Shown here piece after piece: positions 1,900-26,724 of a DNA stretch of 26,724 bases. Each line of letters starts with the position of its first letter. The first letter of the stretch is position 1. The notes beneath the pieces were generated by a model, which saw only the letters and a list, made by a program, of their open reading frames with translations, was not told the DNA's origin and did no database searches. Made by a program: the position numbers and the translations under genes. Source of the stretch: a virus; IMG/VR virus record IMGVR_UViG_3300044941_000432, positions 1 to 26,724 of that record; one strand, given 5' to 3'.

Positions 1900-2822
1900 G
1901 GAGCCTCTAACAGAAAGAGCTCAAAATGAGCTCATGGGCATGCGGTTCGCACAACCTATTGCCAATGGACCTGACCTCGTAGGAGGTGGTGTCATGGCCA
2001 AGCCGCTCGTATCCGATGAGTTGTGGGAGATCGTCGAGCCGCTGCTCCCGCCCCCCAAGCCGCGGCGATTCCGAAACCCCGGCCGCAAGCCGATCGACAA
2101 CCGCAAAGCCCTCACCGGCATCCTGTTCGTGCTCAAGACCGGCATCCAATGGGAGGACCTCCCCGTCGAGATGGGCTGCGGCTGTGGCATGACCTGCTGG
2201 CGGCGGCTGCGCGACTGGCAGGAAGCCGGGGTCTGGTTCGCCCTGTACCACCTGCTCCTGGAACGCCTCGACAACGCCCACGAGATCAACTGGTCCCGGG
2301 CCGCGGTCGATGCCAGCTTCGCCCGGGCGTTCGGCGGAGTCGAGGACAGTGGCCCAAACCCTACCGATCGCGGCCGACCGGGGATCAAGCACCACGTGGA
2401 AGTGGACGCCCACGGCATCCCGCTGGCCGCGGCCAACACACCCGCCCATGTCCCCGAGGTGAACGTCCTGGTTCCGCTGGTCGATTCGGCCGGCCCACTC
2501 GATGAGGAGTTGGAGCCGAAGTGGCGACCCAAGAAGGTATACGCCGACCGGGCATATGACTCGGAGCGCCACCGCGACGAGTTGCGTGATCGTGGCATCG
2601 ACCCGCACTTCGCGCGTCGGCGAACCCCGCATGGCAGTGGTCTGGGAATCTTCCGGTGGGTGGTCGAACGGACCATCTCCTGGCTCCACGGGTTCCGCAA
2701 ACTTCGCTTCATCACGGAGAAACGCGATGAGATGAAAACGGCGTTCCTGAATCTCGCTCTTGCCCTCATCTGCTTCCGGTATCTGTATCCCAGCTGATTC
2801 GGGCTGATTCTGATAGTGCCTC
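1900..2822 (+). mobile_element. IS5-family insertion sequence (IS427-like), about 922 bp
   Basis: A single transposase gene is bounded by imperfect inverted repeats of about 21 bp. The left repeat begins at 1901 (GAGCCTCTAACAGAAAGAGC). The right repeat, read inward from 2822 on the other strand, is GAGGCACTATCAGAATCAGC; 16 of 21 positions match. Both ends are flanked by TA (1898-1899 and 2823-2824), the short target duplication typical of the IS427 group. The element ends 29 bp beyond the stop codon of the WG-repeat gene. It looks intact and could still move. Confidence 0.83.
1994..2797 (+). CDS. IS5-family DDE transposase
   Basis: The 267-residue protein starts MAKPLVSDELWEIVEPLLPPP, the standard N-terminus of IS5-family (IS427-like) transposases, with the DUF4096 helix-turn-helix region first and the DDE_Tnp_1 nuclease fold after it. 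Catalytic acidic residues are visible as AAVDASF (first D), YADRAYDS (second D) and VVERTISWLHGFRKLRF (E, with the Y-(2)-R-(3)-E-(6)-K-like block). I chose ATG 1994 rather than the in-frame ATG at 1934. An ideal AGGAGG lies at 1981-1986, seven bases upstream, and homology begins at MAKP. Length is normal, with no frameshift, unlike many two-ORF IS427 relatives. It is the only protein gene on the plus strand in the window. Confidence 0.93.
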   Translation: MAKPLVSDELWEIVEPLLPPPKPRRFRNPGRKPIDNRKALTGILFVLKTGIQWEDLPVEMGCGCGMTCWRRLRDWQEAGVWFALYHLLLERLDNAHEINWSRAAVDASFARAFGGVEDSGPNPTDRGRPGIKHHVEVDAHGIPLAAANTPAHVPEVNVLVPLVDSAGPLDEELEPKWRPKKVYADRAYDSERHRDELRDRGIDPHFARRRTPHGSGLGIFRWVVERTISWLHGFRKLRFITEKRDEMKTAFLNLALALICFRYLYPS

Positions 2823-6328: not shown

Positions 6329-6329
6329 G

Positions 6330-6338
6330 CCCCCCCCC
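6330..6338. repeat. Homopolymer C9 tract at the frameshift in the exoprotein gene
   Basis: Nine C on the plus strand are nine G in the mRNA. The 5' frame reads GCG GGG GGG GGC CGC TGA and stops at 6323. Ten G, or seven G, would give SAGG(G)PLTFSTMGLPDGLS, which continues the repeat exactly as in the sibling repeats (YSASGTVTFTATGLPDGLS). Seven G matches sibling repeat length. The in-frame G GGG GGG also forms a -1 slippery heptamer. Confidence 0.85.
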
Positions 6339-9283: not shown

Positions 9284-9344
9284 GGGTGCTGTCCTCGGCA
9301 ACCGTGATGTATCTCAAAGCAACTCGCCACGGAATCAGGCGAGC

Positions 9345-9439: not shown

Positions 9440-12253
9440 TCACTTGCTCTGACTCAAGTTGGACAGGAACTCCTCCCACTGGGGCACCACGGCGTCCGGG
9501 TGCCAGGCCCCCGACGCAGACTTGGCCGCAGCACCCGCAGCTTCGGACTTCGCCGCGTCGTCCCAGAGCGCCTCCACCGCCGAGACCCACGGGACGACTT
9601 CCTCGACCGAGGGGGGAGTACGACCCTCGGGGGTAATGTGGAGCGGAATCGACAGGCATGTTCCACCCGCGCCGACCACTTCCGGCAGCGCACCACGATC
9701 ACTCGCGACCACCGGGATGCCGTTGAACATCGCTTCCGCCGCCACCCGACCGAACGACTCGCGCCACAACGACGGTATCACGACGAGCCGCGTCTGCCGG
9801 TAGAACCCCCGCGGGTCCGGCGTGTTGGCCATCCGATGAAGAGACGTGACATTCCGCAAGTCCACACCGCATCGTGCCAGCCAGTCTGCTCGGCCTCGCC
9901 CCTCGACGACCAAGAGCGGAATGTCGGGGCGACTCCGGCCGATGACCTCGGTCATCCGCGCGAACCAGAAGACCCCCTTCTCGGGGACCGGGTTGACGAA
10001 CGTCACGAACTGACCACCGTCCGGGCGCTCGCACGCCACGCGGGTCACGTCAATCACTGGCGGTAGCGCGACACATTCGATCCCGAGCGCCTTGCGGTGG
10101 TACTCGCGGCTGAACTGCGAAGGTACGATCACTGCGTCGCAGCCGGCGAACGCGGCCGCGTCCGGGTACGCGAAGTTGTGCAGCCAGAACGCCACCTTCG
10201 CCCCGGCCTTCTTCGCCACTTGCACGACGCTGCGGCTGGCCGGGTCGCCGCCGTAGGTCAACACGACATCCGGGCGGAACCGCCGCACTGCCTCGGCGAG
10301 GACCGTCAGGAACCCGGCGGTTTCTTCCGGCGAGGGGAGCTTGGCGGGAACGGGCGGGTCCGGGGCGAACACGGTGACCGGGAAGCCGCCCGGCCCCGGG
10401 ACCGTGTGAACGGCAAACTGGCTCGACCCGGCCGCGCCGGGGGCGCTCGTCACTCCGGGCCGGTCGCGGAGCGTAACGCCGATCGGCGTGGCGGCCGGGT
10501 CGTCGAGGAATGGCCCGGTGAACGCCCCACACCGCCAGCCACGGCTGGCGAGTGCGGCGAACAGATCGCGGGTGCAGACCGCCGCCCCGCTCGCCGGGTC
10601 GTGGTAACAGTGGTACGACGCGAACATCACCCGTGGGCGTGACTCCGCGGGGCGCGGCCCAACGCCCGACCCCACGGGTATGGTTCCTGATCGGATCGAA
10701 GTTGTGGGAGAGGAGGGAACGATCCGGAGGGTGACGGGTTCGGCCACCGCTATTGGATAACCATCGGGGGGCGGCGGCTGGCTGCGGGCCAAGCTGTCGG
10801 AGCGAATGTGATACCGTCCACTCCGATGTGCGACGAACGCGAACACCGCCCCCGCCCGCGCGAACCGCCGCCACATCTCCGCGTCCTCGCTCCTCCCGCG
10901 GTAGCGCCCCAGGCTCTCGTCGAACCCGCCAACTCGGTCGATCAGCGCCCGCCGGTGGGCGACGCCGAGCGGAACGGCGAGGGTGTCCGCGACCAGCGCT
11001 CCGAGGTGGGCCTCCGGGTCGTAGGTCGTCACCCGGTCGCCGCAACCCGGCCGCTCGTCGACGAGGTCGTAGCGGAACACCAGGACGTCCCCGCGGCCCC
11101 GGCCGTCCCACACCCGGGCGAGGTGGTCGGGGTAGAACTCGTCGTCGCAATCGAGGTACGCGACCCACCCCCCGGTTGCCGCGGCCAGGGCGGTGTTGCG
11201 CGCGGCCGACAGGCCCCGGTTGGCCGGGTGGCGGAACACCCGGATGCGAGGGTCGGCCGCGGCCGCCGCGTCGAGGAGGGCGGCCGAGTCGTCGGTCGAG
11301 CCGTCATCGATGGCGAGCAACTCCCAGGCGGAAAATGTCTGGGCCAGGACGGACTGGATGGCCCGGCGCACGAACCGGCCGCCGTTGTACACGGGCATGA
11401 CGACCGAAATCGCCGGCCGGGGTGAGGTCGGGTCGATCAGCAACGCCGCCCCACCCGGGGCCGTGTCGGCCTCGGGCGGACTCCGGCCGCCGCTTGCCGT
11501 CGACAGCCCCCCCGATGTCACTACGACCACCCTGGGGTGACCCGGCGGGGACTCCCGCCACCCGCACCCCAGGTCGCGCAGCCAGCACTCGTAGACGGCC
11601 CGGTTCTTGTGGTAACGGTTCGGCAGGAGGGTCGTCTTCCGACCACACAGGAGGGCCGAGATGGCGAAGTGCAACCGGTCGGTGACGACGTGGGCGTGGC
11701 GGGCGGCCAGGCGGAGGTACTCGTCGGGTGTCCGACACACCCGGGCGGGGTCGCCGCGGGACGTCGATTCGGGGAACAGGGCCTCGGCGTCGGCCCGCAG
11801 CCAGACGCCCTCGCCCAGGTCCGGCTCCCCAGGCGTGGGGACATCCAGTCCCAACGCCAGATCGGGGGCCAGTTCGGCATCGGGCCGGAGTCGCCAACTC
11901 GCCCGCTCGCGCACGAACACGCGGGCGTAGGGCAGATCCTCGGGGCCGGTAAACGATTGAGGGAGGACGACCACCGGCCGTCTCCAGGCCAATACCCGCT
12001 CACGAATCGCACAGGCCTGGTGGTAGAAACTCCCCATGTTGCCGCCGGCCGCGATCACCACCGTGTCGGCGTCACCCGGCCCGTCGTTCGGATCGAGGAG
12101 GCGGACGGGGACGGCGAACGCCCGCATCAATTCGAACGCGGCGGCCTCGAGCAGGGCGTCTCCTACGTTCCCCGGCATTCGGACGTAACCGACTGTCCGG
12201 TCCCGGAGCGGTGCGAACACGTGTCGGTATGCGGAAATCGGTAGGAGTCTCAT
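9440..12253 (-). CDS. Three-domain sugar-transfer protein: pyruvyl transferase-like + GT2 + GT4
   Basis: The product is 937 residues from ATG 12253 (MRLLPISAYRHVF); upstream in-frame TTG/ATG starts at 12313 and 12307 lack a ribosome site. Domain 1 (about 10-225) is polysaccharide pyruvyl transferase-like, with GNVGDALLEAAAFELMR at the N-terminus, VIAAGGNMGSFY in the middle and TDRLHFAISALLCG at 191-204. Domain 2 (about 281-490) is a GT2 (GT-A) glycosyltransferase with SVVMPVYNGGRFVRRAIQSV, IDDGSTDDS (315-323), a DCDDEF metal site near 368-373 and a GGFDESLGRYRGRSEDAEMW acceptor block. Domain 3 (about 541-937) is a GT4 (GT-B) glycosyltransferase with WLHNFAYPD, IVPSQFSREYH, VNPVPEKGVFWF and the ESFGRVAAEAMFNGIPVVAS donor-binding signature. 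Each domain alone is a normal-sized enzyme, so this fuses three steps of surface-glycan building. It lacks membrane segments and is probably cytoplasmic. It lies 156 bp after the preceding glycosyltransferase gene and is plausibly in the same functional block. Confidence 0.88.
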   Translation of the reverse strand: MRLLPISAYRHVFAPLRDRTVGYVRMPGNVGDALLEAAAFELMRAFAVPVRLLDPNDGPGDADTVVIAAGGNMGSFYHQACAIRERVLAWRRPVVVLPQSFTGPEDLPYARVFVRERASWRLRPDAELAPDLALGLDVPTPGEPDLGEGVWLRADAEALFPESTSRGDPARVCRTPDEYLRLAARHAHVVTDRLHFAISALLCGRKTTLLPNRYHKNRAVYECWLRDLGCGWRESPPGHPRVVVVTSGGLSTASGGRSPPEADTAPGGAALLIDPTSPRPAISVVMPVYNGGRFVRRAIQSVLAQTFSAWELLAIDDGSTDDSAALLDAAAAADPRIRVFRHPANRGLSAARNTALAAATGGWVAYLDCDDEFYPDHLARVWDGRGRGDVLVFRYDLVDERPGCGDRVTTYDPEAHLGALVADTLAVPLGVAHRRALIDRVGGFDESLGRYRGRSEDAEMWRRFARAGAVFAFVAHRSGRYHIRSDSLARSQPPPPDGYPIAVAEPVTLRIVPSSPTTSIRSGTIPVGSGVGPRPAESRPRVMFASYHCYHDPASGAAVCTRDLFAALASRGWRCGAFTGPFLDDPAATPIGVTLRDRPGVTSAPGAAGSSQFAVHTVPGPGGFPVTVFAPDPPVPAKLPSPEETAGFLTVLAEAVRRFRPDVVLTYGGDPASRSVVQVAKKAGAKVAFWLHNFAYPDAAAFAGCDAVIVPSQFSREYHRKALGIECVALPPVIDVTRVACERPDGGQFVTFVNPVPEKGVFWFARMTEVIGRSRPDIPLLVVEGRGRADWLARCGVDLRNVTSLHRMANTPDPRGFYRQTRLVVIPSLWRESFGRVAAEAMFNGIPVVASDRGALPEVVGAGGTCLSIPLHITPEGRTPPSVEEVVPWVSAVEALWDDAAKSEAAGAAAKSASGAWHPDAVVPQWEEFLSNLSQSK

Positions 12254-12409
12254 TTCATGGTTCGCCTGTGCGAGTGGGCCACGCCCTCCTTGCCGGGAGA
12301 GTGGCATGCGCAACGTCAGGTTTGGCCCGTGAAGAGCAGCTTACGCACCGGCCGAGCGGTCGTCACGGGCCGTCCTGCCGCCGGCCCGGTGATCGGTGCG
12401 CCTCGGTGG

Positions 12410-14065
12410 TCACGCAGGAAAGCCCCGACCGTCACACGTCCGAACGTCGTGGAGCGTGGCGAGGACGAGGTCCGCGACGGTCTCGGTGGCGAACCGTTCC
12501 GCCGCACAGCTCCGAACGGTGCTGCGAGGCATCGCACTCGCGCGGACGACGGCGTCCGAGTACACCCCCAGTGCCGCCGCGTCCGCGTCGTTCTTCACGC
12601 ACTTTGTGCCCGGTGGTAGCCGATCCACGAAGACGCCGGTAACTCCGTCCCGGATGAACGGTGCCCCGGTGCGGACACCGACGGTCGGACAGCCGGCGAG
12701 CAGGATCTCCTGGAGCGCGAGCGGGCCGTGGTCGTCGTCGGCCAGGTAGGCGCAGGCCCGCGAGCGGCGGGCGGCCTCGAACAACTGGTCCCGCCTGTAT
12801 TGGCCGTAGTGCAGTACGACGTGCCGGGGGAAGACCTCGCACAGGTGTTCGAGCAGGCCGGGGCGGTGGCCGTTCTTGGAGTAGATGAGCAGGTCGTACT
12901 CGTCGGGCAGTGGTTCGCCCGGCCACGGGTCGATGGGGTACGGCCAGGTGACGATGGGCGCGGTGTTCGCCGGGCCGCGGTTCTTGGCGATCAGATCGCG
13001 GTACCAGTCGCTGTGGCAGAACATGGCCCGGCAGTTCGCGGCGTCGAGCAGGCCGCGTTCCTCGGCGTCGATGCGCGGCTTCCACGAGTAGGTGAAGAGC
13101 ATGTTCGGGCCCTGTACGAACGGCCGGCCCTCCGAGTCCCACCAGACGGCGTAGCGGCGGTCGTCCCAGTGCCAGAACCAGGGCAGCGCCCCGTCGCTCG
13201 CGGGCAGCGACTTGATCGACAGCCAGTCCAACCCCTCCTTGATCCGCTTGCGGAGTTCCTTCTGCAGGGCGTACATGCCGTTGGTCGGGCCGTCGCGGCC
13301 GGGGGCGTGGACCGGGCCGATCAACTCGACCGGCATCAGGCCGTCGCGGTGCGTGACGTGCGGGGCGGCGGTGAACCGCTTGACCACCGGCAGCGTGGTG
13401 AAGTCGCGCGGCCAGCCGGGCTGGACTTTGTGCTTGCCCTTGGTGGTCTTCTTGCCGAGGTCGCGGTAGCCGGCGTCGTCGAGATAGCTCAGGTGGTAGC
13501 TGCCGGTGTCCACCCGGTAGTGGTAGAACGGCCGGGCGAACTCGCACGGGTCGCAAACGCTCACCTTCGCTTCGTTCAGCCGCCGGGCCAGGTCCTGGTC
13601 TTCGCCGTTGTTGAGGGCCGCGTACCCGCGCACCGCGTCGAACGCAGAGCGGCGAAAAGCCCAGCCGCCGTGGTACAGGCCGCCCGTGTCGTGCTCCTTC
13701 AGCCCGTCGCCGTGGGCGAGCAATACCAGCGATGGGCGGGACCAGTCGGCTTTCTTCAACGCCTCGGCTTGCGTCGAGAACCAGTGCGGCAGGTAGACGT
13801 CGTCGTCGTCCGCGACCAGGAACCCCTCGGCGTCCGGCGAGGCCAGCGCGGCGCAGGCGTTCCGCTTCTCGCCGAGCGAGCGGAAGCGGGCCGGCACCGA
13901 GATCAGCCGCCAGCCCTCGCCGGCCTGGTTGTCGTACTGGCCGGCGTCGTCGAGGATGACCAACTCCCGCAGGTGCCGTGGGTAGTCCTGGCGGAGGAAC
14001 GACTCGATCAGCTGGCCGAGCAGGTGCGGCCGGTGGAACGTGCAGCAGAGGGCGGCGAGCTTCAT
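12410..14065 (-). CDS. Two-domain glycosyltransferase (GT2 N-terminal, GT4-like C-terminal)
   Basis: The product is 551 residues. Residues 1-230 form a GT2 domain: AALCCTFHRPHLLGQLIESFLRQDY, VILDDAGQ (36-43), the DXD-type VADDDDVYLPHWF (85-97) and the GEDQDLARRL acceptor/base block (154-163). Residues of about 245-545 resemble a GT-B glycosyltransferase: DYLL-type strand YDLLIYSKNGHRPGLLEHL, HYGQYRRDQLFEAARRSRACAY, then DDHGPLALQEILLAGCPTVGV, where the GT4 'E-x7-E' equivalent is partly kept. The start ATG overlaps the upstream stop as ATGA (14062-14065), implying translational coupling with the pyruvyl transferase-like gene. The enzyme is predicted cytoplasmic. Substrates cannot be named from sequence. 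The order GT4, pyruvyl transferase, GT2-GT4 directly after a Ser-rich phage protein suggests this set acts on a common acceptor. Confidence 0.85.
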   Translation of the reverse strand: MKLAALCCTFHRPHLLGQLIESFLRQDYPRHLRELVILDDAGQYDNQAGEGWRLISVPARFRSLGEKRNACAALASPDAEGFLVADDDDVYLPHWFSTQAEALKKADWSRPSLVLLAHGDGLKEHDTGGLYHGGWAFRRSAFDAVRGYAALNNGEDQDLARRLNEAKVSVCDPCEFARPFYHYRVDTGSYHLSYLDDAGYRDLGKKTTKGKHKVQPGWPRDFTTLPVVKRFTAAPHVTHRDGLMPVELIGPVHAPGRDGPTNGMYALQKELRKRIKEGLDWLSIKSLPASDGALPWFWHWDDRRYAVWWDSEGRPFVQGPNMLFTYSWKPRIDAEERGLLDAANCRAMFCHSDWYRDLIAKNRGPANTAPIVTWPYPIDPWPGEPLPDEYDLLIYSKNGHRPGLLEHLCEVFPRHVVLHYGQYRRDQLFEAARRSRACAYLADDDHGPLALQEILLAGCPTVGVRTGAPFIRDGVTGVFVDRLPPGTKCVKNDADAAALGVYSDAVVRASAMPRSTVRSCAAERFATETVADLVLATLHDVRTCDGRGFPA

Positions 14066-14832
14066 GAGTCCACGAACCTCCGAACGGCGTCACGGAGCGG
14101 GGCCGCCATCGCGTGAACCAGGTCGGGTGCGAGCTTCGGCCTCGGCTCGTCCCACGGGGCGTCGGCGATCCGCCAGCCGAGGTGGGTGTAGCCCGTGAAC
14201 CGGTTCTCGGAGTTGGGCGGGCGGACGAGCACGACCGGCGTCCCCATCGCGGCGCACGGCAACAGGACGTGCAGCCGGCTGGTCACCACCCAGCGGGCGC
14301 GGGCGTAGAGATTCAGCCTCCGGGTGGCCTCGGCCACGCGGTCGCAGTCGCGCGGCACGGTGTGGGAGAGCTTGGTGCCGGCGGCGATCCTCGGCGGCAG
14401 GCGTTCGAGGTCCGCCGGGGCCACGTCCACCAGCAGCACGTCGTCGGTGCGCGGGCCGTAGGCCGGTTCCAGCGTGAGCGTGGCGCACCACGACAGCCAG
14501 GCGTCGATGCCGTGGCGGGCGCATAGGTGAATCGTCCACGGGTCGCGGCAGCCGATCGGCGAAGCCGTGTTTCGCGGGATGGCGTCGGGGTCGTTGGCGT
14601 GCAGTCCGACGAACAGCGTCCTCGCCCGCGTCCGCGGCGGCCAGTGCTTGTGGGCACCCGAGGCGAACCAGCCGTTGACGACCCAGCGGACGTCCTCGCC
14701 CCAGTCGCGGGCCGGGCCGAGGTCGTCGCGGTCGATCCGCAAATCGACACGGGGCACCAGGCGTTCGAGGGCGAGCGACTGGATGTCGTCGCCGATGTTC
14801 TGGGTGCGGTACCGGACGACGGCGATCTTCAC
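14062..14832 (-). CDS. Polysaccharide pyruvyl transferase-like protein
   Basis: The 256-residue protein starts at GTG 14832 (MKIAVVRYRTQNIGDDIQSLALERL). The GTG overlaps the upstream TGA as GTGA (14829-14832), giving tight coupling. The start fits the family: a first strand, then the 'N.GDD.Q..AL' helix that binds donor phosphate. Further on, SHTVPRD is followed by RARWVVTSRLHVLLPCAAMGTPVVLV, the conserved R-L-H active-site region. At 256 residues it is short for the family (usually 300-400) but has both Rossmann-like halves. A longer open frame extends to 15405 but runs antisense-like through the previous gene in another frame and is not real. The role is probably pyruvylation or a related modification of a glycan made by its neighbours. 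Confidence 0.82.
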   Translation of the reverse strand: MKIAVVRYRTQNIGDDIQSLALERLVPRVDLRIDRDDLGPARDWGEDVRWVVNGWFASGAHKHWPPRTRARTLFVGLHANDPDAIPRNTASPIGCRDPWTIHLCARHGIDAWLSWCATLTLEPAYGPRTDDVLLVDVAPADLERLPPRIAAGTKLSHTVPRDCDRVAEATRRLNLYARARWVVTSRLHVLLPCAAMGTPVVLVRPPNSENRFTGYTHLGWRIADAPWDEPRPKLAPDLVHAMAAPLRDAVRRFVDS

Positions 14833-15881
14833 GCGGCGGCCCTCCGGCTGCGGGCGACGGACTCGAACAGCTTGACCCAGGCGGCGGAGAGTGCCTCTGG
14901 GTTCGCCAGGTCGCTCACCAGCTTCTCGCGGGCGGCCGTGATCACCTTCTGCCGCAGTTCCTCGTCGTAGGCGAGCGTCGCGGCGTGGTGGGCCAGTTCC
15001 TCGTCGCAGTCGCCGAGGAAGCCGGTCACGCCGTGGTCGATCATCTCCTTCCAGCCCCAGTCGTTCTGGGCGACGACGGGCACCCCGGCGGCGAACGCTT
15101 CCAGGCCAGCGCGGGGCCAGTTCTCCCGCGCCCCGCCGTTGACCGGCAGCAGGCAGTGCAGCGTGGCGAAGAACTGCGGGGTTGGGATGGCCATCGGCCG
15201 CAGGATGCTGGCCCACGGGGGCGGCGGGCCGAGCTTGGCCAGCGTCCGTTCGTCCACGCCCATGACCAGGGCCTGCCGGTGCCGGTGGGCGACGCGGTCG
15301 TAGATCCGCCAGGTGTTGCTCGACCACTTGTCGGCGTCGGGCCGCGCTACTCGCCCCACGACGAACGGCTCGTGCTTGCCGTGCGGCCGTGGGCGGAACT
15401 CCCACTCGTCGAGGTCGAACGCGCCGCGGATCAGGTGGCCGGACACCTTGTCGTAGCCGAGCGGGGCGAGTTGCGGCTCCAGCTGCTTCCGCTGGAAGTC
15501 GGACTGGAAGACGAAGGCGTCGGCGGGGCCGTGGTCGGCGAAGGCCTTCTTCTCGTGGTCGAACAGGAAGGTCATGCAGTTGGCCCAGACGAGCGGGCAG
15601 CCCAACGCCCGGAAACGGTGGGCGTGAACCAGGAACTCGCCGTTGCAGAAGGCCACGACCGGCGAGCCGGCCAGGCCGGGGACACGTTCGAGGTCGTCGG
15701 GCCGGGTCGGGTGGGTGACGCTGCCGAGGGCATCAAGCCGTGCCCGCCAGCGGTCGTCAAAGCCCCAGGTGGGGATGAGGTGGACGTCGAGTCCGGCCCG
15801 CCGCCAGAGCTTGACGGTGTGCCAGGCCTCGGTGTTGGCCCCGCCCATTTCGCCGGGGTAGCCGGCCAGGAAGACGCGCAT
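14829..15881 (-). CDS. GT4-like glycosyltransferase
   Basis: The 350-residue protein begins MRVFLAGYPGEMGGANTEAWHTVKLWRRAGLDVHLIP, a GT-B first strand with the Gly-rich acceptor loop, preceded by GGAGGT at ideal distance. The C-terminal Rossmann half has VVGRVARPDADKWSSNTWRIY (donor-binding strand), LHCLLPVNGGARENWPRAGLEAFAAGVPVVAQN (the E-x7-E-like GT4 signature, with E in ENWPRAGLEA) and a final WKEMIDHGVTGFLGD. It is normal length, without membrane segments. It starts only 11 bp after the stop of the Ser-rich phage protein gene and overlaps the next gene by 4 bp. It therefore looks like the first enzyme of a sugar-transfer cassette at the end of the phage operon. The frame is open upstream to 16631, but that stretch is the other frame of the Ser-rich gene. 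Confidence 0.88.
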   Translation of the reverse strand: MRVFLAGYPGEMGGANTEAWHTVKLWRRAGLDVHLIPTWGFDDRWRARLDALGSVTHPTRPDDLERVPGLAGSPVVAFCNGEFLVHAHRFRALGCPLVWANCMTFLFDHEKKAFADHGPADAFVFQSDFQRKQLEPQLAPLGYDKVSGHLIRGAFDLDEWEFRPRPHGKHEPFVVGRVARPDADKWSSNTWRIYDRVAHRHRQALVMGVDERTLAKLGPPPPWASILRPMAIPTPQFFATLHCLLPVNGGARENWPRAGLEAFAAGVPVVAQNDWGWKEMIDHGVTGFLGDCDEELAHHAATLAYDEELRQKVITAAREKLVSDLANPEALSAAWVKLFESVARSRRAAA

Positions 15882-15892
15882 GGAACCTCCGG

Positions 15893-17797
15893 TCAGAAGA
15901 GGATGACGAAACTGCTCTCGGTCGGCGGCGGTGGCGGGAAGACGAGCGAACTGCTCGGCTCGCCGGACGAACTCGGCGGCTCCCACCACCAACTGCTGCT
16001 CGACGAACTGTCGATCCACCACGAACTGCTCGGCCACCAGACGCTGCCGCTGCTGGGCGGGTGAACGATCACGTGGCTCGACGACGGCGGCGGAGCGAGG
16101 GAGGACGACGGGTCGATGACGATCAGGCTGCTCGACGGCAGCGGGTCGATGCCCGAGGTCGAACTCGAACTGCTCGACGGCCAGGTGGCGTTGCTCGACG
16201 AGGGTGGCTCGATCCACGACGACGGCGGCCACGGCACGTCGCTCGACGAGGGCGGATGCACCCACGACGAGGGTGGCTCGATCCACGACGATGAAGGCAC
16301 CACCCAGGACGACGAGGGGAACACCAGCGACGACGAACTCATCCACAGGCTGGAGCTCGACCAGCCGGACGAACTGCCCGAGCAGTTGTCGCAGCGGCAA
16401 CACCCCGCCTGGTGGCTGACGGCCCAGGAGCCTTCCTCGCGGGTCAGCCCGCCGTGTTCGATCCGCAGCGTGACGGTGCGGTGGTAGACGTACAGCCTGC
16501 CGCCCTCGCAGCGGACGTCCGTCTCGGTGACGCCGACGCCCGGCCCGCTGCCGCTGCTGCCCGACCCGCTCGGCGTGCCGCTCGACGACGGCCACAGGCT
16601 GGACGAGGGCCAGGAACTCGACGACGGCCACAGGCTCGATGACCAGCTACCCGAGCCGTCGCTGCCGGACGAGCTCCACCACGACGAGCCGCTCCACGAA
16701 CTGCCCGAGGACGACCACCAACTGCTGCCCGACGAACTGCCGCTGGACGACCCGGACGAACTCCACCACGACGAACTGCCCGAGGAACTGGGCCACCAGG
16801 ACGAACTCGGCCAGGCCGACGAACTCCACCACGACGAACTGCTGCTCGACCAGCCGCTGGACGACCCGCTCGAACTCCAGGCGGAACTCGACCCGGACGA
16901 ACTGCCCGAACTGCTCCCGGACGAACTGCCGCTGGACGACCCGCTTGACGAACTCGACGACGACGAACAGCACCCCTCGCCGAGGGCGACCACCTCCCAC
17001 TTGCGGCTGTCCTCAAACCGCTTGGCCAGCCCGAACGTCCCGGCCGGCACCGACTCCGCCGACGGGCAGTCGCACCCCTCGCCCGAGGTCGATTCGCTCT
17101 TGCACAGGTCCGGGCAGACGACGCCGATCGAGTCGTGGACGGTGAGCGTCACCTCGACCGGGCACCACTTGCCGTCCTGGAACACCACCGGCTTGGCCAG
17201 GGCCGAGCCGCACCGCGACAGCGACTCCAGCAACTGGAACCGCAGCACGTCCTCGGCGTCGCCCAGCCGCACCACCGCCCACCGCTCGGTCGAGCCGCTC
17301 TCCTCCAGCCACAGCACGCGGGCCGACCCCGCCGGGGCGTTGCGGAGCGACAGCGTGTTGCCCGGCTCCATCTCCGCGAAGTCGTACAGGTGGTCGGGAT
17401 CGACGATCACCTTGACCGGCGTCACGCCGGCCACGATGCCCCGTCCGATGGCGTTCACGTCGAGCGGTTCGAGCAGCACCGCGAACCGGCCGGCGGCGAT
17501 CGGGTCGTACGGCGTGCCGCCCTCGAAGTTGACCTTGTTCTTGAACTCCTGCAGGTTCGCCAGCGGGCCGACGATCGGCTCGGACATCGCCAACACGGCG
17601 AACCGTGGCAGCGCGAAGCCGGTGTTGTTCCGCACCCGGACGATGCCGGTCTGGCGGAACTCGTCGGCCGCGTCGGACTCGGTGTTGTGCTGCCGGGCGC
17701 GGACGTAGTTGGCCGCGTCCACGAAGCCGTTGAACGCGTCGGCCGGGATGACCAGCCGCTGGCCGGGCAGTGCCTTCTTGAACGGGTCGCCCGGCAT
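15893..17797 (-). CDS. Phage tail-associated protein with Ser/Trp/Pro-rich low-complexity regions
   Basis: The product is 634 residues. Residues 1-275 are a folded domain (MPGDPFKKALPGQRLVIPAD ... VRVRNNTGFALPRFAVLAM ... AVLLEPLDVNAIGRGIVAG) of a type I associate with planctomycete prophages; its exact structural role is unknown. A GEGCC motif (about 277-281) opens the first Ser-rich region (to about 425), made of SSSG, SSSW and WPSSS units. A small Cys-containing beta domain (ETDVRCEGGRLYVYHRTVTLRIEH and GCCRCDNC, about 430-472) separates it from the second Ser-rich region (about 473-620: EPPSSW, HPPSSS, WWPSSS). The tail ends PPPPPTESSFVILF. Dense Ser with Trp/Pro suits an extended, possibly O-glycosylated fibre. 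It follows the tail genes with a 1-bp gap and precedes glycosyltransferases by 11 bp. Alternatives are a baseplate or fibre component, or a surface-display protein. Confidence 0.8.
   Translation of the reverse strand: MPGDPFKKALPGQRLVIPADAFNGFVDAANYVRARQHNTESDAADEFRQTGIVRVRNNTGFALPRFAVLAMSEPIVGPLANLQEFKNKVNFEGGTPYDPIAAGRFAVLLEPLDVNAIGRGIVAGVTPVKVIVDPDHLYDFAEMEPGNTLSLRNAPAGSARVLWLEESGSTERWAVVRLGDAEDVLRFQLLESLSRCGSALAKPVVFQDGKWCPVEVTLTVHDSIGVVCPDLCKSESTSGEGCDCPSAESVPAGTFGLAKRFEDSRKWEVVALGEGCCSSSSSSSSGSSSGSSSGSSSGSSSGSSSAWSSSGSSSGWSSSSSSWWSSSAWPSSSWWPSSSGSSSWWSSSGSSSGSSSGSSWWSSSGSSWSGSSWWSSSGSDGSGSWSSSLWPSSSSWPSSSLWPSSSGTPSGSGSSGSGPGVGVTETDVRCEGGRLYVYHRTVTLRIEHGGLTREEGSWAVSHQAGCCRCDNCSGSSSGWSSSSLWMSSSSLVFPSSSWVVPSSSWIEPPSSWVHPPSSSDVPWPPSSWIEPPSSSNATWPSSSSSSTSGIDPLPSSSLIVIDPSSSLAPPPSSSHVIVHPPSSGSVWWPSSSWWIDSSSSSSWWWEPPSSSGEPSSSLVFPPPPPTESSFVILF
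15912..16380. repeat. Low-complexity DNA encoding the second Ser/Pro/Trp-rich region
   Basis: Irregular short repeats of CGACGA/GCTCGACGA type encode SSS clusters separated by W, PP, EPP and HPP on the minus strand. The frame is maintained throughout, so these repeats are constrained at protein level. They are not CRISPR or intergenic repeats. Confidence 0.7.
16525..16965. repeat. Low-complexity DNA encoding the first Ser/Gly/Trp-rich region
   Basis: Irregular repeats such as GACGAACTGCCG and GACGAACTCCACCACGA encode SSSG and SSSW units over about 145 residues. The region starts straight after a Cys-Cys pair. Both TCG and AGC/AGT serine codons are used, arguing against pure recent slippage of one codon. 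Confidence 0.7.
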
Positions 17798-17798
17798 G

Positions 17799-18581
17799 TC
17801 ACACCCCGATGCCCAACAGGGCGAAGTTGCCGTACTCGTAGACCCGTTCGACGTAGGCCGCGACCGGCTGCTTGATCAGCGTCTCCTCGTCCTCGGCGTC
17901 GGCGTACCGCACCCACAGGTACTCCCACCCCTTCTTCTCGATGCCGGTGATGTCGCCGACCGTGAGGTCCGTGGCGTTCGGGCTGGCGGCGAACTTGAAG
18001 GCGATCTCCCAGTCCTCGGTGCCGCGCTGCGAGCCGGACGCGCCGAGGAACAGCACCTCGCCGCGGGCGAACCCCTTGAACGGGGCGTGGTTCACCCGCC
18101 CGGTCAGGTAGAAGAGGGTGGTCTTGTACGCCCCGGTCAGCAGCGCGACGGGGACGTAGTGCGTCTCGGTGAAGTTGAAGACCGGGATGGTGATGTCGGT
18201 GCCTTCGACCGAGTCGGTCGAGACGCCGATGGCCCCCTGGAAGTCGGGCGGGTCGTCGCCGTAGCTGCCCACCGTCTCCAGGCTCTGCGTGATCTTCTGG
18301 TTCCCGCCGCCCGTGTCGAAGCTGTAACTGCTGGCCCCGGCTTCTTTCGGCTCGAGCTTGCCGTAGCGGGCGGTGACCTCCCAGACGCCGCCGCCCTGGT
18401 GGGCGATGTGGTAGTTCTGGAAGACCAGGTTGCCGTAGGCGAGCGGCAGGGTGGCCTGCACCAACGCCCGCACCTCGGCGTCCAGTTCGGTGCCCAGCAC
18501 CATGAACTGCAAGTCCACCGACGGGCTGTCGATCCCGACGGTGGCTTCGCGGCTGTCGAACTTCTCGATGATGATCGCCAT
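17799..18581 (-). CDS. Phage tail-associated protein of unknown role
   Basis: The 260-residue protein begins MAIIIEKFDSREATVGIDSPSVDLQFMVLGTELDAEVRALVQATLP. It is rich in predicted beta strands with few helices and has no signal peptide. It contains the segment YSFDTGGGNQKITQSLETVGSYGDDPPDFQGAIGV and an aromatic stretch near the C-terminus (GWEYLWVRYADAEDEETLIKQPVAAYVERVYEYGNF). I recognise no named domain. It lies between the tape measure gene (7-bp gap) and the Ser-rich protein (1-bp gap), where siphovirus-like phages place distal tail or baseplate hub proteins, so a distal tail/baseplate role is inferred from position. It is the kind of gene repeatedly found beside Ser-rich proteins in planctomycete prophages, but that is recollection, not a search. 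Confidence 0.7.
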   Translation of the reverse strand: MAIIIEKFDSREATVGIDSPSVDLQFMVLGTELDAEVRALVQATLPLAYGNLVFQNYHIAHQGGGVWEVTARYGKLEPKEAGASSYSFDTGGGNQKITQSLETVGSYGDDPPDFQGAIGVSTDSVEGTDITIPVFNFTETHYVPVALLTGAYKTTLFYLTGRVNHAPFKGFARGEVLFLGASGSQRGTEDWEIAFKFAASPNATDLTVGDITGIEKKGWEYLWVRYADAEDEETLIKQPVAAYVERVYEYGNFALLGIGV

Positions 18582-18588
18582 GGGTGCC

Positions 18589-20568
18589 TCACGCGAAGAC
18601 GAGGCCGCCGTGCTGGGCCTCCTGTACGAGTTTCTTGGTGTTCGCCGCCGTCTGCTCGGCCGCCTTGGCGGTGCGTTCGCTCAGGGACTCCGCGCCCAGC
18701 CCGCGGACGGCCAGCGCGCTGAAGGTGCCCTGGATGTCCACCTTCTCGCGGGCCGTGTCGGCCACCTCGTCGAGTTCGGGAAAGTCGGGCCGCTTCATGC
18801 GGTCGGGCGAGCGTGCTGCGTCGGCCTCCTCGCGCTTCCGCTTGGCCTCGGCGAGGGCGTCCTCCCACTCCTTGCGGGCGTCGGCGATGTCGGCCTCGCT
18901 CGCCGCGAGCGTCTCCTGCTTGCGCTTCTGCCGCTCGGCCCGCTCGGCCTCCTGCATGCGGTTGAGCTCGTCCTCGACCCCGGCGCGTTCGCCCTCGATG
19001 GCCGCCCGGCGGCGTTGCCGTTCCGTCTCGCGCTCGTTGACGGCGGCGTCGCGGCGGGCGTTGATGGCGTTGTCCTCGGCGGCGATCTCGTCGTTGATGC
19101 GGGCGATCTCCTCACCCGCGTCCTTGCCGGTGAACACGCTCTTGACCCGGGCCCACACCTTTTTGAAGAAGCCGCTGAACCGGTTCCACCCCTTCTGCAG
19201 CACGCCGATGAAGTTCGTCCAGGCGGTACCGAGGAAGCTGACCGTCTCGACCCAGGCGACCTGGATGCCGGCCCAGGCGTCGTTGAGGAACCGGGCCAGG
19301 CCGTAGACCGCGCGGTAGAAGGTGTCGATGAAGAAGTTCTTGAAGTCGATCCACTTCTCCTCCAGCCAGAGCACCCCCTTCTGGAACTCCATCTTGAGCG
19401 TCAGCCAGAGGATGCGGGCGGCGAGGCCGATGTCGCCGGCGGCCAGCGCGTCCGAGATCCCCTGCCACGCTGCGAGGGCGGTTTCCTTGAGGCCGTTGAA
19501 CTGCTCGCCGAGCCACGACAACGCTTGGCTGCCGGCGTCGGAGGTGTAGATCATGTAGCCGGCCAGCGCGACCACGGCGGCGGTGACCAGGCCGATCGGA
19601 CTCAAGATCGCCGCGACGACGGCGGCCAGGATCTTGAACACGGCCACCACGCCCATGATCAGCGACACCAGTCCGCCGATCGCCGCTCCGACGAACGAGA
19701 TGGCCCCGCCGGCCGCGATCAGGGCCACGCCCACTCCAACCACGGCGGCGATGACCTTGGCCACGGTGACGATGACCGCCTTGTTCTCCTTGACCCAGTT
19801 CACCACCCCGACCACGAACCGCGTGATGGTGCCCAACAGCGCGGTGAGGTCGGGGGCGAGTGCCCCGCCGATGGCGAAGGCGGCGGCCTTGAGGGTCTTG
19901 ATGAGCCGGTTCCAGGCGTCCTGCAGGTCGGCGGCCGACTGGGCCTGGTCGGTGCCCACCGTCAGCCCGAGCCGATTGGCCTCGGCCCGCAACTCGTCGA
20001 TCCCCTTGGCCCCGGCGGAGAGCAGCGGGATGAGCTTCTGGCCGCTCTTGCCGAAGACGTCCATCGCCAGGGCGGCCCGCTGCGTCGGGTTGCCGACCTG
20101 GGCGATGCGGTCGGCCAGGAGGCGGAACTGCTCGTCGGGCGTCAACGCCTTCAGGTCGGCGACGGTCAGGCCGAGCTTGGCGAGGGTGGCCCGCATCTCG
20201 CGGGAGCCGCTGGCCGCCGAGACAAGGTTCCGCTGCATCGCCTTCAGGCCCGCTTCGAGCGTCTCCAGGTCGGCCCCGGACTGCTCGGCGGCGAAGCCGA
20301 GCTCGGACAACGCCTCGGTCGAGACGCCGGTGCGGGCGGCCATCTTGTTGAGCGCGTCGCCGGCGTCCTTGAAGTGAAACACCATGCCGGCGACCGGGGC
20401 CAGGGCCGCCCCGCCCAGTGCCACGAGCCGCGCCCCCAGCCCGGCCACGCTCGCGCCGAACGCCTTGAGCTTCTTGGCGGCCGCGTCGAGGCCCTTGACG
20501 AGCCGGCTGTCCTTGACGGCCAACTCGACATACGCGGCACCGGCACGGATTCCCTTGGCGTCGGCCAT
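18589..20568 (-). CDS. Phage tail tape measure protein
   Basis: The 659-residue protein sets tail length and serves as a scaffold for tail tube assembly. Visible features include the typical N-terminal region with LVKGLDAAAKKLKAFGASVAGLGARLVALG, then the tape measure signature FKDAGDALNKMAARTGVSTEALSELGFAAEQSGADLETLEAGLKAMQRNL (about 66-115). A 'NPTQRAALAMDVFGKSGQKLIPLLSAG' block follows (about 160-186). Hydrophobic membrane-spanning-like segments cover about 263-342. Amphipathic aromatic helices follow (about 370-480), then a long charged coiled coil (about 490-600). At 659 residues it predicts a fairly short tail if the roughly 1.5 angstrom per residue rule holds. The start ATG lies 7 bp after the chaperone frame ends. 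Confidence 0.92.
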   Translation of the reverse strand: MADAKGIRAGAAYVELAVKDSRLVKGLDAAAKKLKAFGASVAGLGARLVALGGAALAPVAGMVFHFKDAGDALNKMAARTGVSTEALSELGFAAEQSGADLETLEAGLKAMQRNLVSAASGSREMRATLAKLGLTVADLKALTPDEQFRLLADRIAQVGNPTQRAALAMDVFGKSGQKLIPLLSAGAKGIDELRAEANRLGLTVGTDQAQSAADLQDAWNRLIKTLKAAAFAIGGALAPDLTALLGTITRFVVGVVNWVKENKAVIVTVAKVIAAVVGVGVALIAAGGAISFVGAAIGGLVSLIMGVVAVFKILAAVVAAILSPIGLVTAAVVALAGYMIYTSDAGSQALSWLGEQFNGLKETALAAWQGISDALAAGDIGLAARILWLTLKMEFQKGVLWLEEKWIDFKNFFIDTFYRAVYGLARFLNDAWAGIQVAWVETVSFLGTAWTNFIGVLQKGWNRFSGFFKKVWARVKSVFTGKDAGEEIARINDEIAAEDNAINARRDAAVNERETERQRRRAAIEGERAGVEDELNRMQEAERAERQKRKQETLAASEADIADARKEWEDALAEAKRKREEADAARSPDRMKRPDFPELDEVADTAREKVDIQGTFSALAVRGLGAESLSERTAKAAEQTAANTKKLVQEAQHGGLVFA

Positions 20569-22360: not shown

Positions 22361-22801
22361 TCAGGGGGCGACGACCCAGCTGGGCGGGGTGACGGAGAAG
22401 GTCGGCTTGACGGTGACGCTGACGGTGATGGCCTCCTCGAGCGACTCGTTGCGGCTGAAGTTGGTGACCATGCAGGTGGCCCGCAGCCCCTGCGAGCCGG
22501 GCACGTTCATCGGCCCGTCCATGACGGCGAACTCCATCGCCCCGCGGTTCAGGAACGTGTCGCGGATGGCGGCGAAGTCGTCGTCGGCCGTGTCCCAGAC
22601 CATCTCGAACTCGATCGACCCGTCCTTGAGCGTGGCCACGGTCGCCCGCCAGCCGGCGTTGCCGCGGGTGGTCACGTCGGCTTCGCCGGCCTCGAGGTTC
22701 AAGGTCACGTCCTTGACGTTCTGGATCTCGTTCCAGGCGGGCGAGGCGAAGGTGCCGGTGTTGCGGTACAGTTTGGCGTCGAGCCCGAGTTTCACGGCCA
22801 T
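22361..22801 (-). CDS. Phage tail tube protein
   Basis: The 146-residue protein (MAVKLGLDAKLYRNTGTFASPAWNEIQNVKDVTLNLEAGEADVTTRG) follows the pattern of siphovirus major tail/tube proteins: an N-terminal 'G.da.ly' strand, 'WNEIQNVKDVTLNLEAGEADVTTRG' and KDGSIEFEMVWDTADDDFAAIRDTFLN. Then comes a beta C-terminus (GLRATCMVTNFSRNESLEEAITVSVTVKPT). Hexamers would stack into the tail tube. The ATG is preceded by GAGAGGAG. Its position between the tail completion genes and the tape measure block fits. No sheath gene is visible, so a non-contractile tail is favoured. Confidence 0.82.
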   Translation of the reverse strand: MAVKLGLDAKLYRNTGTFASPAWNEIQNVKDVTLNLEAGEADVTTRGNAGWRATVATLKDGSIEFEMVWDTADDDFAAIRDTFLNRGAMEFAVMDGPMNVPGSQGLRATCMVTNFSRNESLEEAITVSVTVKPTFSVTPPSWVVAP

Positions 22802-24064: not shown

Positions 24065-24397
24065 TCACTGGCTGAGCCGGACGCGGACGTGCGGGCTGCC
24101 CGGCCGAGAGTCGACCAGTACCGTCTTGCCCAGCAGCTTGTTGCCACTGGCCGTCTCGGTGGCGACCTTGGCGGTGTTGTCCCAGTAGGCCAGGTCGCCC
24201 ACCGCCCAGCCCGTCAGCGACGCGACCGGGAAGTCGAACACGCCGACGACGGCGAGTGCCCCGAGCTTGCCGGCCTTGATGTCGAGCTTGGCCACGCCGA
24301 CCAGTTCGCCCTGCACGACCACGTCCCCGGCCGCCACGTCGGCCACCGGGATGTGGTCGATGCTGCCGCCGTCGTGGATGAAGATCACCTGCGCCAT
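24065..24397 (-). CDS. Capsid decoration protein (DUF2190-like)
   Basis: The 110-residue protein (MAQVIFIHDGGSIDHIPVADVAAGDVVVQGELVGVAKLDIKAGKLGALAVVGVFDFP) shows the DUF2190 pattern: an 'G..I...p.adv.aGdvV..g.l.GVa..di.aG..g.la..GvfdfP' beta core followed by 'G.L.YWD....kvt...sgn.liG' and an 'RVRLS' end. DUF2190 proteins decorate or cement the outside of the capsid. It normally follows the major capsid gene directly; here an HNH endonuclease gene is wedged between them. Its first 13 bases overlap the end of that endonuclease gene. Confidence 0.8.
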   Translation of the reverse strand: MAQVIFIHDGGSIDHIPVADVAAGDVVVQGELVGVAKLDIKAGKLGALAVVGVFDFPVASLTGWAVGDLAYWDNTAKVATETASGNKLLGKTVLVDSRPGSPHVRVRLSQ

Positions 24398-24942
24398 GTC
24401 TGCCTCCGGTGGTTCAAGATCACTGCGTGCCGTTTCCCGTTCTGGATCAGGCTGACGGCCGCCCGACTCACGCCAAACCTGCGGGCGACGACAGCCTGTG
24501 GGACCACCCCACGCAGGCTGACGATTTCCCGCACCTGCAAGTCAGTCAGCCGCCTGCCCACCGGCTCCCGAAGCCGCGTCCGATAGGCGTGACGGTGGTT
24601 GTCCCCGCGACTGAGGTATTCCAAGTTGTGCAAGGCGTTGTCGTGCTTGTTCCCGTTCTTGTGGTTCACGTCGCGACCGTGGGCTGCTCCCAGGAAAGCG
24701 GCCGCGACCAGTCGATGAACGCTTCTCGCGACGTACCGGCCCATGACGCGAAGGCTGACCACCAGGTAGCCGGTCTTCGAGTGCGCGGTCGGCCGCAGTA
24801 CTTTCCACTCGCCAGACTTGCGGCTCCGGATACGTCCCTGATCGCTCGCCTGGTAATCCGGGAAGTCCAGAAGGTCTGCCCAGCGCTCCTCGGAAGAAAA
24901 ACACGAAGCTGGCTGGGGGCAGGCTGGTTCCAGTTCGCTCAT
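24385..24942 (-). CDS. NUMOD4-HNH homing-type endonuclease with C-terminal helix-turn-helix
   Basis: The 185-residue protein starts at ATG 24942, overlapping the capsid stop as ATGA. The NUMOD4-like region (EERWADLLDFPDYQASDQGRIRS, about 19-41) precedes an HNH nuclease: VHRLVAAAFLG, then DVNHKNGNKHDNALHNLEYLSRGDNHRHAYR. This gives the H-N...N-N...N pattern of free-standing homing endonucleases in phages. The C-terminus (LTDLQVREIVSLRGVVPQAVVARRFGVSRAAVSLIQNGK) is a resolvase/NUMOD-type DNA-binding helix-turn-helix. It is inserted between capsid and decoration genes without breaking either, a typical free-standing homing site. Composition is slightly more AT-rich than its neighbours. Confidence 0.88.
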   Translation of the reverse strand: MSELEPACPQPASCFSSEERWADLLDFPDYQASDQGRIRSRKSGEWKVLRPTAHSKTGYLVVSLRVMGRYVARSVHRLVAAAFLGAAHGRDVNHKNGNKHDNALHNLEYLSRGDNHRHAYRTRLREPVGRRLTDLQVREIVSLRGVVPQAVVARRFGVSRAAVSLIQNGKRHAVILNHRRQTWRR

Positions 24943-26724
24943 GCTTCCCCTTTCGCTTTCACTCCGCCACGAGGGTCTTGCAACGCGCAACCGAAGTCGT
25001 GGTAGCCGCGCATCTGGACGCCCAGGACGTGGAAGTCGGCCTCGGCCGTCTCGATCGTCGGGGCCTCCTGGCCGTTCAGGAACGCCACCTCGATCACCGG
25101 CAAATCCGTCGGTTCGGCCAACAGGTACCACGCCTTCGCCGAGAAGCCGGGGTACTTGGCGTTGCCCAAGTAGCGGCTCACCTCGACGCGGAACTTGCCC
25201 TGGTGCGGGTTGGTGATCGGGTACTTGGCCGTCGAGGCGTTGTCGCGCAACTCCAGCGACTTGAACAACTGCGAGCCGATCGCCGAGAGCGCCGTCGGCA
25301 CCAACAGGATCGCCGGCATGACGCCGATCGGCTTGCCGTCGCCGTCCACCTGGTCGAGGAAGGCCACCTCGCCGGCGGTCAGCCCATCGATCCCCAGGGC
25401 GGTCGTCGCCCCGGAGATGAAGTTGGCGTTGCCGGCGGTGAAGAAGGCGGCGTTGTTCAGGAACGTCGTCCAGAACACGTCGTTGATCTTCAGGCCCGAC
25501 CCGCGGCCGAGCTTCTGCGGCACGGTGGTGATCGCGCCGAGGTCGTCGTTGATCACGTCGCGGCGGTCGATGGACAGCATCAGGCCGTAGGTGTCAGCCC
25601 GGTTCGAGTACGTCTCGTTGCCGAGCGTGCCGTGCTTGATCTCGCCGCCGGGTGCGACCAGTTCATACTGGTCCTTGCCGATGAGCCGGTAACTGGTCAC
25701 CGTCTTGAAGTCCGACACGTTCCGCACGGCGCAGACGTTCCGCCAGGTGCGTTCGACCGAGAAGAAGCCGTCGAGCAGGAACTTGTTGGCGACGTTCGAC
25801 AGGATGCCGCCGATGTCCACCGTCGAGAACGCCGCCTCGATGCCCCGGCCGAAGGCGTACCGCAGGACGGTGCGGTGGTCGCGGAAGTTCCGCCCGGTGT
25901 AGCCGTTGGCCCACGCCGCTTCGAGCAGCAGTTCTTGCAGGCCGATGCCGCCGCGGAACCGCCGGGCTGCCGCGTCGAGCGTTGGCTCCGGGTAGAGGCG
26001 TTCGACGCCGTCGAGCTTGGCGGTCAACAGGCAGGCCGCCTCCAGGACCGCGCCGCTGACGCCGCCGTCACCCGAGCCGATCCCCGGCGAGCGCGGACGG
26101 GTCGATCGCAGCACCTCCAGCTCGGTCCGCATGGCGTCCCAGCCGTCGCGGATGGCCTGGCTCTCGATCTCGGGAAACCGCCCGCCGCAGACCCGCCGCA
26201 CCGCCGTGATGCGGTTGGTCTCGGCGACAGCCTGGGACCGCACCGCCTCGACGGTGAAGGCGTCGCCCTCGTCGTGGTCGTCCTCGCTCGTGACGGTGCC
26301 GTCGGGGTTCCGGGTGGCGGCGACGCTGGCCGAGGTGCGGCCGTCGGCCCCGAGGTCGACGAAGCTGATCTCGCCGAGCGTCGCCTTGCGGACGACGTTG
26401 AGCGGGCCGGTGAAGGTGCGGCCGTTGACCAGCACCTGTTGGTTGTCCTTGACGAACTCGAACTCCTCGACGCCGGCCCCCACGGATGCCTGCCACGGGA
26501 AGCCGTTGCGGGCCGAGGTCACGACCTCGCGGGCCGCCGGCGTGTCGCGGGAGACCAGGCCGGTGGCGACCAGTTGCCCCTCCTCGACCCGCACCGCGTC
26601 GGTGTGGCCGACGCCGGACAGCGGGTCGTGGCCGAAACGGATGGGCCGGGACTGCGACGGGATCGACAGCCCGGCCAGGTCGATGACCACCGGGTGCCGC
26701 CAGCCGGCGACCCGCATCGGCGTG
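24939..26724 (-). CDS. Fused prohead protease and major capsid protein (5' end outside window)
   Basis: The frame is open through the right edge. An ATG exists at 26717, but the fold appears to begin earlier (T-P before it). From 26717 the protein is 592 residues. The first part (about 1-150) is a phage prohead protease: GWRHPVVIDLAGL (His), HTDAVRVEEGQLVATGLVS, FPWQASVGAGVEEFEFV (Ser), VNGRTFTGPLNVVRKATLGEISFVDLGADGRTSA. A charged linker follows (SEDDHDEGDAF), then a helical stretch. The C-terminal half is a gpT-like/HK97-fold capsid protein (about 300-592): FSTVDIGGILSNVANKFLLDGFFSVERTW, IKHGTLGNETYSNRADTYGLMLSIDRRDVINDDLGA, FNNAAFF. It self-cleaves and builds the head in related systems. 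Fusion replaces the usual separate protease, scaffold and capsid genes. Confidence 0.85.
   Translation of the reverse strand, partial: TPMRVAGWRHPVVIDLAGLSIPSQSRPIRFGHDPLSGVGHTDAVRVEEGQLVATGLVSRDTPAAREVVTSARNGFPWQASVGAGVEEFEFVKDNQQVLVNGRTFTGPLNVVRKATLGEISFVDLGADGRTSASVAATRNPDGTVTSEDDHDEGDAFTVEAVRSQAVAETNRITAVRRVCGGRFPEIESQAIRDGWDAMRTELEVLRSTRPRSPGIGSGDGGVSGAVLEAACLLTAKLDGVERLYPEPTLDAAARRFRGGIGLQELLLEAAWANGYTGRNFRDHRTVLRYAFGRGIEAAFSTVDIGGILSNVANKFLLDGFFSVERTWRNVCAVRNVSDFKTVTSYRLIGKDQYELVAPGGEIKHGTLGNETYSNRADTYGLMLSIDRRDVINDDLGAITTVPQKLGRGSGLKINDVFWTTFLNNAAFFTAGNANFISGATTALGIDGLTAGEVAFLDQVDGDGKPIGVMPAILLVPTALSAIGSQLFKSLELRDNASTAKYPITNPHQGKFRVEVSRYLGNAKYPGFSAKAWYLLAEPTDLPVIEVAFLNGQEAPTIETAEADFHVLGVQMRGYHDFGCALQDPRGGVKAKGEA

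Follow-up and report, generated by a model that had tools for sequence, protein, structure and literature searches.

A predicted self-glycosylating virion-fibre module in a tailed phage of planctomycetes

Introduction

Mycobacteriophages Che8, Corndog and Myrna use transferases of their own to glycosylate virion proteins, with the C-termini of capsid and tail-tube subunits as targets (Freeman et al. 2023, cited via PMC12363180 and PMC12619734). The SRRP adhesins of Gram-positive bacteria, which are defined by GtfA/GtfB with DUF1975 and by accessory Sec, carry a Ser-rich repeat domain, are glycosylated inside the cell and have two to ten transferases per cluster (PMC6973325). In a review of decoration proteins, the relatives of the beta-tulip protein gpD include phi29 gp8.5, the phi29 preneck appendage and MoeA; gp8.5 is composed of a beta-tulip base and a spike, attaches to the capsid in the form of trimers and has a role in adhesion to the host (PMC7602432).

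In this study, we analysed an incomplete virus record of 26.7 kb from IMG/VR (IMGVR_UViG_3300044941_000432), the whole of which (positions 1 to 26,724) is called the window. It encodes a Ser-rich protein followed by a cassette of sugar-transfer genes. As in Che8, Corndog and Myrna, the transferases are phage-encoded and lie in a phage genome, here joined to the major capsid protein, tape measure and tail genes. However, the transferases here are predicted to act on a distinct Ser-rich fibre, whose gene is directly followed by a multi-enzyme cassette; the phages are those of planctomycetes, and glycosylation itself is a prediction. The literature searched, beyond whose reach most subscription papers lay, yielded no earlier report of transferases in phages of planctomycetes.

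A preliminary description of the locus had likened it to the SRRP adhesins. The likeness held for a long Ser-rich repeat domain as acceptor and for dedicated transferases in the same cluster, but not for the enzymes and the export system. The window transferases matched no Pfam or NCBIfam family for the GtfA/GtfB pair with DUF1975 at E <= 0.01, and no accessory Sec genes (SecA2, SecY2, Asp) were present in the window, where the neighbours are phage structural genes (the record being incomplete, more distant genes fall outside this scope). Further, the base domain is phage decoration-like here, whereas SRRP adhesins have a signal peptide and a binding region. The locus works like an SRRP system but is not a member of that class, because neither accessory Sec genes nor a GtfA/GtfB-type domain were found in the window and the enzymes differ. 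With phi29 gp8.5 and other beta-tulip decoration proteins it shares a predicted beta-tulip base and a fibre-like C-terminal part; however, gp8.5 has a supercoiled spike (PMC7602432), whereas here the extension is a low-complexity, Ser-rich tract and transferase genes follow.

Results

The cassette and the phage structural genes all lay on the minus strand. In the direction of transcription, the phage block began with a head maturation protease/major capsid protein fusion (24939..26717), followed by an HNH/NUMOD4 homing-type endonuclease gene (24388-25131) inserted between the capsid and cement genes, a Phage_cement_2 (PF09956) capsid cement protein (24065..24397), several small head-tail genes and the major tail protein (22361..22801). 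It continued with a trypsin-like protease (PF13365; 21291-22331) inside the tail gene block, the tail length tape measure protein (18589..20568), the conserved 260-aa phage protein T260 (17799..18581), which served as a synteny marker, the Ser-rich gene and four transferase-type genes. The trypsin-like protease had an N-terminal signal-like segment and was kept between the major tail protein and the tape measure in the related loci L002, L004 and L041. Two large He_PIG proteins were encoded on the minus strand at 6323-9301 (also with Calx-beta and a MEDRVVP motif) and 3999-6311; LEDR-type proteins resembling this pair come after the cassette in L044 (15677-20545) and L072 (17452-19350), and the pair could represent surface proteins of the host or cargo of the phage. 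An IS4/5-type transposase (1994-2797, plus strand) and a further pyruvyl transferase-like gene (PF04230; 547-1287, minus strand) were located to the left of the cassette.

The Ser-rich protein (15893..17797, minus strand) had 634 residues, approximately 27% of them Ser, with 63 Ser within residues 301-400. An N-terminal domain (residues 1-182; 17252..17797) with a predicted beta-tulip/decoration-like fold was followed by a linker domain to residue 275 and by the Ser-rich region (residues 276-634; 15893..16972), which started with CC and consisted of SSSG/SSSW/PSSSW repeats interrupted by a Cys-rich segment. When the Ser-rich part was compared with that of L002, 48 synonymous and 25 non-synonymous codon changes were counted, and 52 of the 98 base changes fell at codon position 3. 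Repeat number varied among the homologues while the frame stayed intact in every full one. The synonymous excess and the survival of the frame through changes in repeat number indicate, at the level of codons, that the Ser-rich frame is real and under coding constraint. Forward open reading frames opposite this gene (e.g., 16527-17708, plus strand) were dismissed as antisense shadows, because it is the Ser-rich frame that homologues conserve.

The GT4 glycosyltransferase gene (350 aa; 14829..15881) started at 15881 after an 11-bp gap containing GGAGG. It overlapped by 4 bp (GTGA) with a gene for a polysaccharide pyruvyl transferase-like protein (PF04230; 14062..14832), which in turn overlapped by 4 bp (ATGA) with a 551-aa gene (12410..14065) encoding a GT2 domain and a C-terminal GT4-like domain, the latter clear only in homologues such as L041. 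A protein with pyruvyl transferase-like, GT2 and GT4 domains (9440..12307; ATG at 12307 chosen over TTG at 12313) started about 100 bp past the GT2-GT4 gene with no overlap. No terminator-like site was seen on the minus strand from the Ser-rich gene through the GT2 gene. Pfam E-values were 3.7e-11 for GT4, 1.1e-7 for PS_pyruv_trans and 1.1e-5 for Glycos_transf_2; in the last protein, PS_pyruv_trans covered residues 49-232, Glycos_transf_2 303-403 and Glyco_trans_1_4 773-887. This gene order, including the gap, the two overlaps and the three-domain protein, had been described from the sequence beforehand and was confirmed by open reading frame calls and Pfam. The C-terminal Glycos_transf_1 domain of the GT4 protein scored 43.3 bits against a curated cut-off of 26.4, its E-x7-E motif was conserved in 9 homologues, and its remote PDB relatives included BshA. 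A simple hydropathy scan showed no transmembrane-like segment in the four enzymes, and the window contained no recognisable flippase and no recognisable membrane-bound partner of the GtrA/B type.

The AlphaFold model of the N-terminal domain (m148319abed35) had a pLDDT of 78. The top Foldseek matches in the PDB were proteins of phi29 (gp8.5), T1, FCWL1, HFTV1, E217 and Pam3, with E-values of about 0.004-0.05 (best 3.6e-3). In VIA-align, the 16 top entries had Z scores from 10.9 to 6.5, after which the score fell to 4.8 (gephyrin/MoeA-like domains); HFTV1 scored 10.9, FCWL1 9.4, T1 9.1 and phi29 gp8.5 7.0. All 16 were phage decoration/head-fibre proteins except two entries of phi29 gp12, the preneck appendage. 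The prediction for the N-terminal domain is thus the beta-tulip fold known from capsid decoration/head-fibre proteins. It gave no Pfam match and no profile similarity to the PF09956 cement proteins of the same phages (hhalign probability 1.1%).

Relatives were sought with alignments of the N-terminal domain (A3) and T260 in IMG/VR and in planctomycete genomes and MAGs. Hosts of the N-domain relatives were Gemmataceae, Isosphaeraceae, Thermoguttaceae and Pirellula, in line with the planctomycete setting proposed beforehand; of 392 genomes sampled from the phylum to which one such host belongs, 39 had relatives. A tblastn search with the window N-domain against 50,697 phage records gave no match, and only remote capsid relatives were found there. 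Two loci (L066, L076) came from MAGs with the labels Bacteroidales and Propionivibrio; since every other named host was a planctomycete, their contigs may have been binned wrongly. Three layouts were distinguished: the N-domain fused to a Ser-rich tract as in the window (layout A), a short N-domain gene with the SSG-type tracts in a gene of their own behind it (layout B), and an N-domain without a tract (layout N). A CC pair stood immediately ahead of the tract in most layout A and B proteins. The Isosphaeraceae genome G001 (KatS3mg108) had layouts A and B at one locus each, and a single contig of another planctomycete genome (G355) had eight N-domain loci. In L227, an SSG-rich tract downstream of the N-domain gene and after a methyltransferase-like gene ran in frame into a Hint/intein-like domain (SGNCLLFGTLVRLADG...). 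The lineage of L214, L210 and L225 had Ala/Thr/Gly-rich fibre proteins of approximately 725-790 aa without a Ser tract, with a GT9-like third gene in L214 and L210.

Tracts and transferases were found together in both directions of search. In the forward test, clusters were formed at 80% N-domain identity, 68 had enough downstream sequence, and transferases were counted within 6 kb. Genes were called with a home-made codon model and longest open reading frames, and transferases were recognised partly by small local HMMs, not Pfam; the tract was defined by S+T, replacing S+G, which missed the Thr-rich L237. A transferase lay downstream in 27 of the 30 clusters with a Ser/Thr tract (the exceptions were L227, L218 and L070) versus 9 of the 38 without (Fisher p = 3e-8, ignoring kinship). 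These nine included the lineage with the GT9-like gene; tract-less relatives mostly carried other genes at that position. In the reverse search from GT4 in IMG/VR, 12 of 14 relatives were 6-27 bp behind an N-domain plus Ser-rich gene, and the two without that neighbour were the most divergent (54% and 49%). From PF11051, an unrelated transferase, all 36 testable relatives had an S/G-rich open reading frame no more than 3.5 kb upstream, and at 34 of them both the N-domain and T260 genes were present. The preliminary description had held that the link would fail if homologues of the Ser-rich gene usually lacked adjacent glycosyltransferases; these counts favour the link.

The Fisher p-value overstates the evidence, since the Ser/Thr tract changed only 4 times on the N-domain tree with only one independent contrast on strongly supported branches, so that the tract-transferase statistics are phylogenetically non-independent. 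The exchange of families at one position and the higher conservation of the transferases stand apart from this p-value. Layout A was mostly followed by the same GT4 gene, which is tied to fused Ser-rich fibres, and layout B by a PF11051 gene, often plus FkbM methyltransferase and GT4. The same position was occupied elsewhere by GT25 (L162, L216, L206), GT32/GT8 (L228, L162) or GT2 (L220, L237), and on the N-domain tree the first transferase switched family (GT4, PF11051, GT25, GT32/GT8 or GT2 among relatives) no fewer than 6 times. In L237 (genome G104), a Thr-rich (TTGTGTT) fibre protein and a Thr-rich neighbour preceded GT2, which on sequence is a natural Ser-to-Thr swap.

Identity between the window and L072 was 71% for GT4 and 76% for GT2-GT4, compared with 40% for the major capsid protein, 43% for the N-domain, 51% for the tape measure, 61% for T260 and 28% for the major tail protein. 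Both constraint and a recent swap of the cassette among phages may lie behind the higher transferase identity. At E <= 1e-50, the GT4 family occurred in only 5 of the 392 planctomycete genomes, at 7 places, 4 of which adjoined an N-domain match (G001, two of three in G360, and G384). Of the others, one was cut by the contig start, the G364 copy (L242) had no readable neighbour and one was a weak outlier. Being found in so few genomes and mostly beside an N-domain, GT4 looks like a phage gene and not a general host gene.

Discussion

The locus is best read as a module with which a tailed phage of planctomycetes makes and glycosylates a virion fibre of its own: soluble phage transferases would O-glycosylate the Ser-rich fibre. 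We give this reading a probability of roughly two in three. It draws on gene order, co-directionality, the recurrence of the link, the exchange of transferase families and the predicted base fold. The Ser-rich protein would be a surface fibre of the virion; its beta-tulip base would most likely sit on the capsid, like that of phi29 gp8.5, and its long Ser-rich extension is probably disordered. Soluble transferases expressed from the same transcript would modify this protein in the cytoplasm during late expression; action there on a soluble acceptor is argued from the lack of membrane-like segments and of a recognised flippase partner, and the nearest such acceptor would be the Ser-rich fibre of the same operon. 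The adjacent GT4, the best candidate for a priming enzyme, probably adds the first sugar to Ser, and the GT2/GT4 and pyruvyl-transferase-like enzymes would extend and modify the sugar chain. Elongation and decoration would fall to the genes further downstream, which vary more (GT2-GT4, PPT, methyltransferase-like, and LicD in L002). The glycosylated fibre would then be assembled onto the particle, where it may act in adsorption or shielding.

The place of the fibre on the particle was weighed separately. The preliminary description had called the protein tail-associated, and its gene does sit behind the tape measure and T260, which would suit a tail-tip or tail-side fibre glycosylated in the same way. 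The beta-tulip fold also occurs in the phi29 gp12 preneck appendage and, among predicted viral structures, in proteins annotated as tail-fibre-like or collagen-repeat. However, 14 of the 16 clear PDB fold matches were capsid decoration/head-fibre proteins, the gp12 entries being the other two. A head fibre or decoration protein is therefore probably the better assignment from the model, although it is weakened because the phage also encodes an ordinary PF09956 cement protein and the fibre gene is behind the tail genes; a tail fibre is a possible but less probable placing, and 'tail' is probably better read as 'head or tail fibre'. The earlier interpretation as a whole was partly supported, its main part by an independent reverse search from the transferases.

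Other roles for the enzymes were judged less probable than glycosylation of the fibre. GT2, GT4 and pyruvyl transferase families are typical of polysaccharide synthesis, and the window has the additional PS_pyruv_trans gene at 547-1287, so the transferases could alter the surface of the host cell, in serotype conversion or in superinfection exclusion, and stand behind the fibre gene by chance. We consider this unlikely, as no flippase, GtrA/B-like partner or transmembrane-like segments were seen in the window and several unrelated transferase families hold the same place behind Ser/Thr-rich fibre genes. Slightly more doubtful still is the view that genes of any kind, transferases included, settle at the end of the structural operon and that the Ser-rich tract is an unmodified linker. 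The association is concentrated in one main clade and transferases also occur in some tract-less relatives, as neutral cargo might; however, most tract-less relatives have other genes there, GT4 or PF11051 is nearly always first behind the tract, and the transferases are better conserved than the structural genes. Glycosylation of phage DNA against restriction, a known role for some phage transferases (PMC12619734), is very improbable here given the late structural operon, the strict link to Ser/Thr-rich proteins and the lack of any recognisable base hydroxymethylase or related gene in the window.

Beyond the single locus, self-glycosylation of the fibre could be part of a modular mucin-like virion coat common to planctomycete phages. 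A conserved beta-tulip base would be combined with tracts rich in Ser, Thr or Ser/Gly that can replace one another, and phages would swap the transferase cassette behind it in a nearly serotype-like way, so that every phage has a sugar coat of its own. We put this forward tentatively, at somewhat less than even odds.

Virion glycosylation is known from a few mycobacteriophages, and the present module, if true, would be a second and structurally different kind, with a dedicated Ser/Thr-rich fibre and an exchangeable cassette. The paired genes are small, soluble and suited to co-expression, so O-glycosylation of proteins by phage enzymes can be tested directly, and nature offers many variants of the enzymes for the same type of acceptor. 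If true, the module would be spread over many phages of a phylum with few cultured phages.
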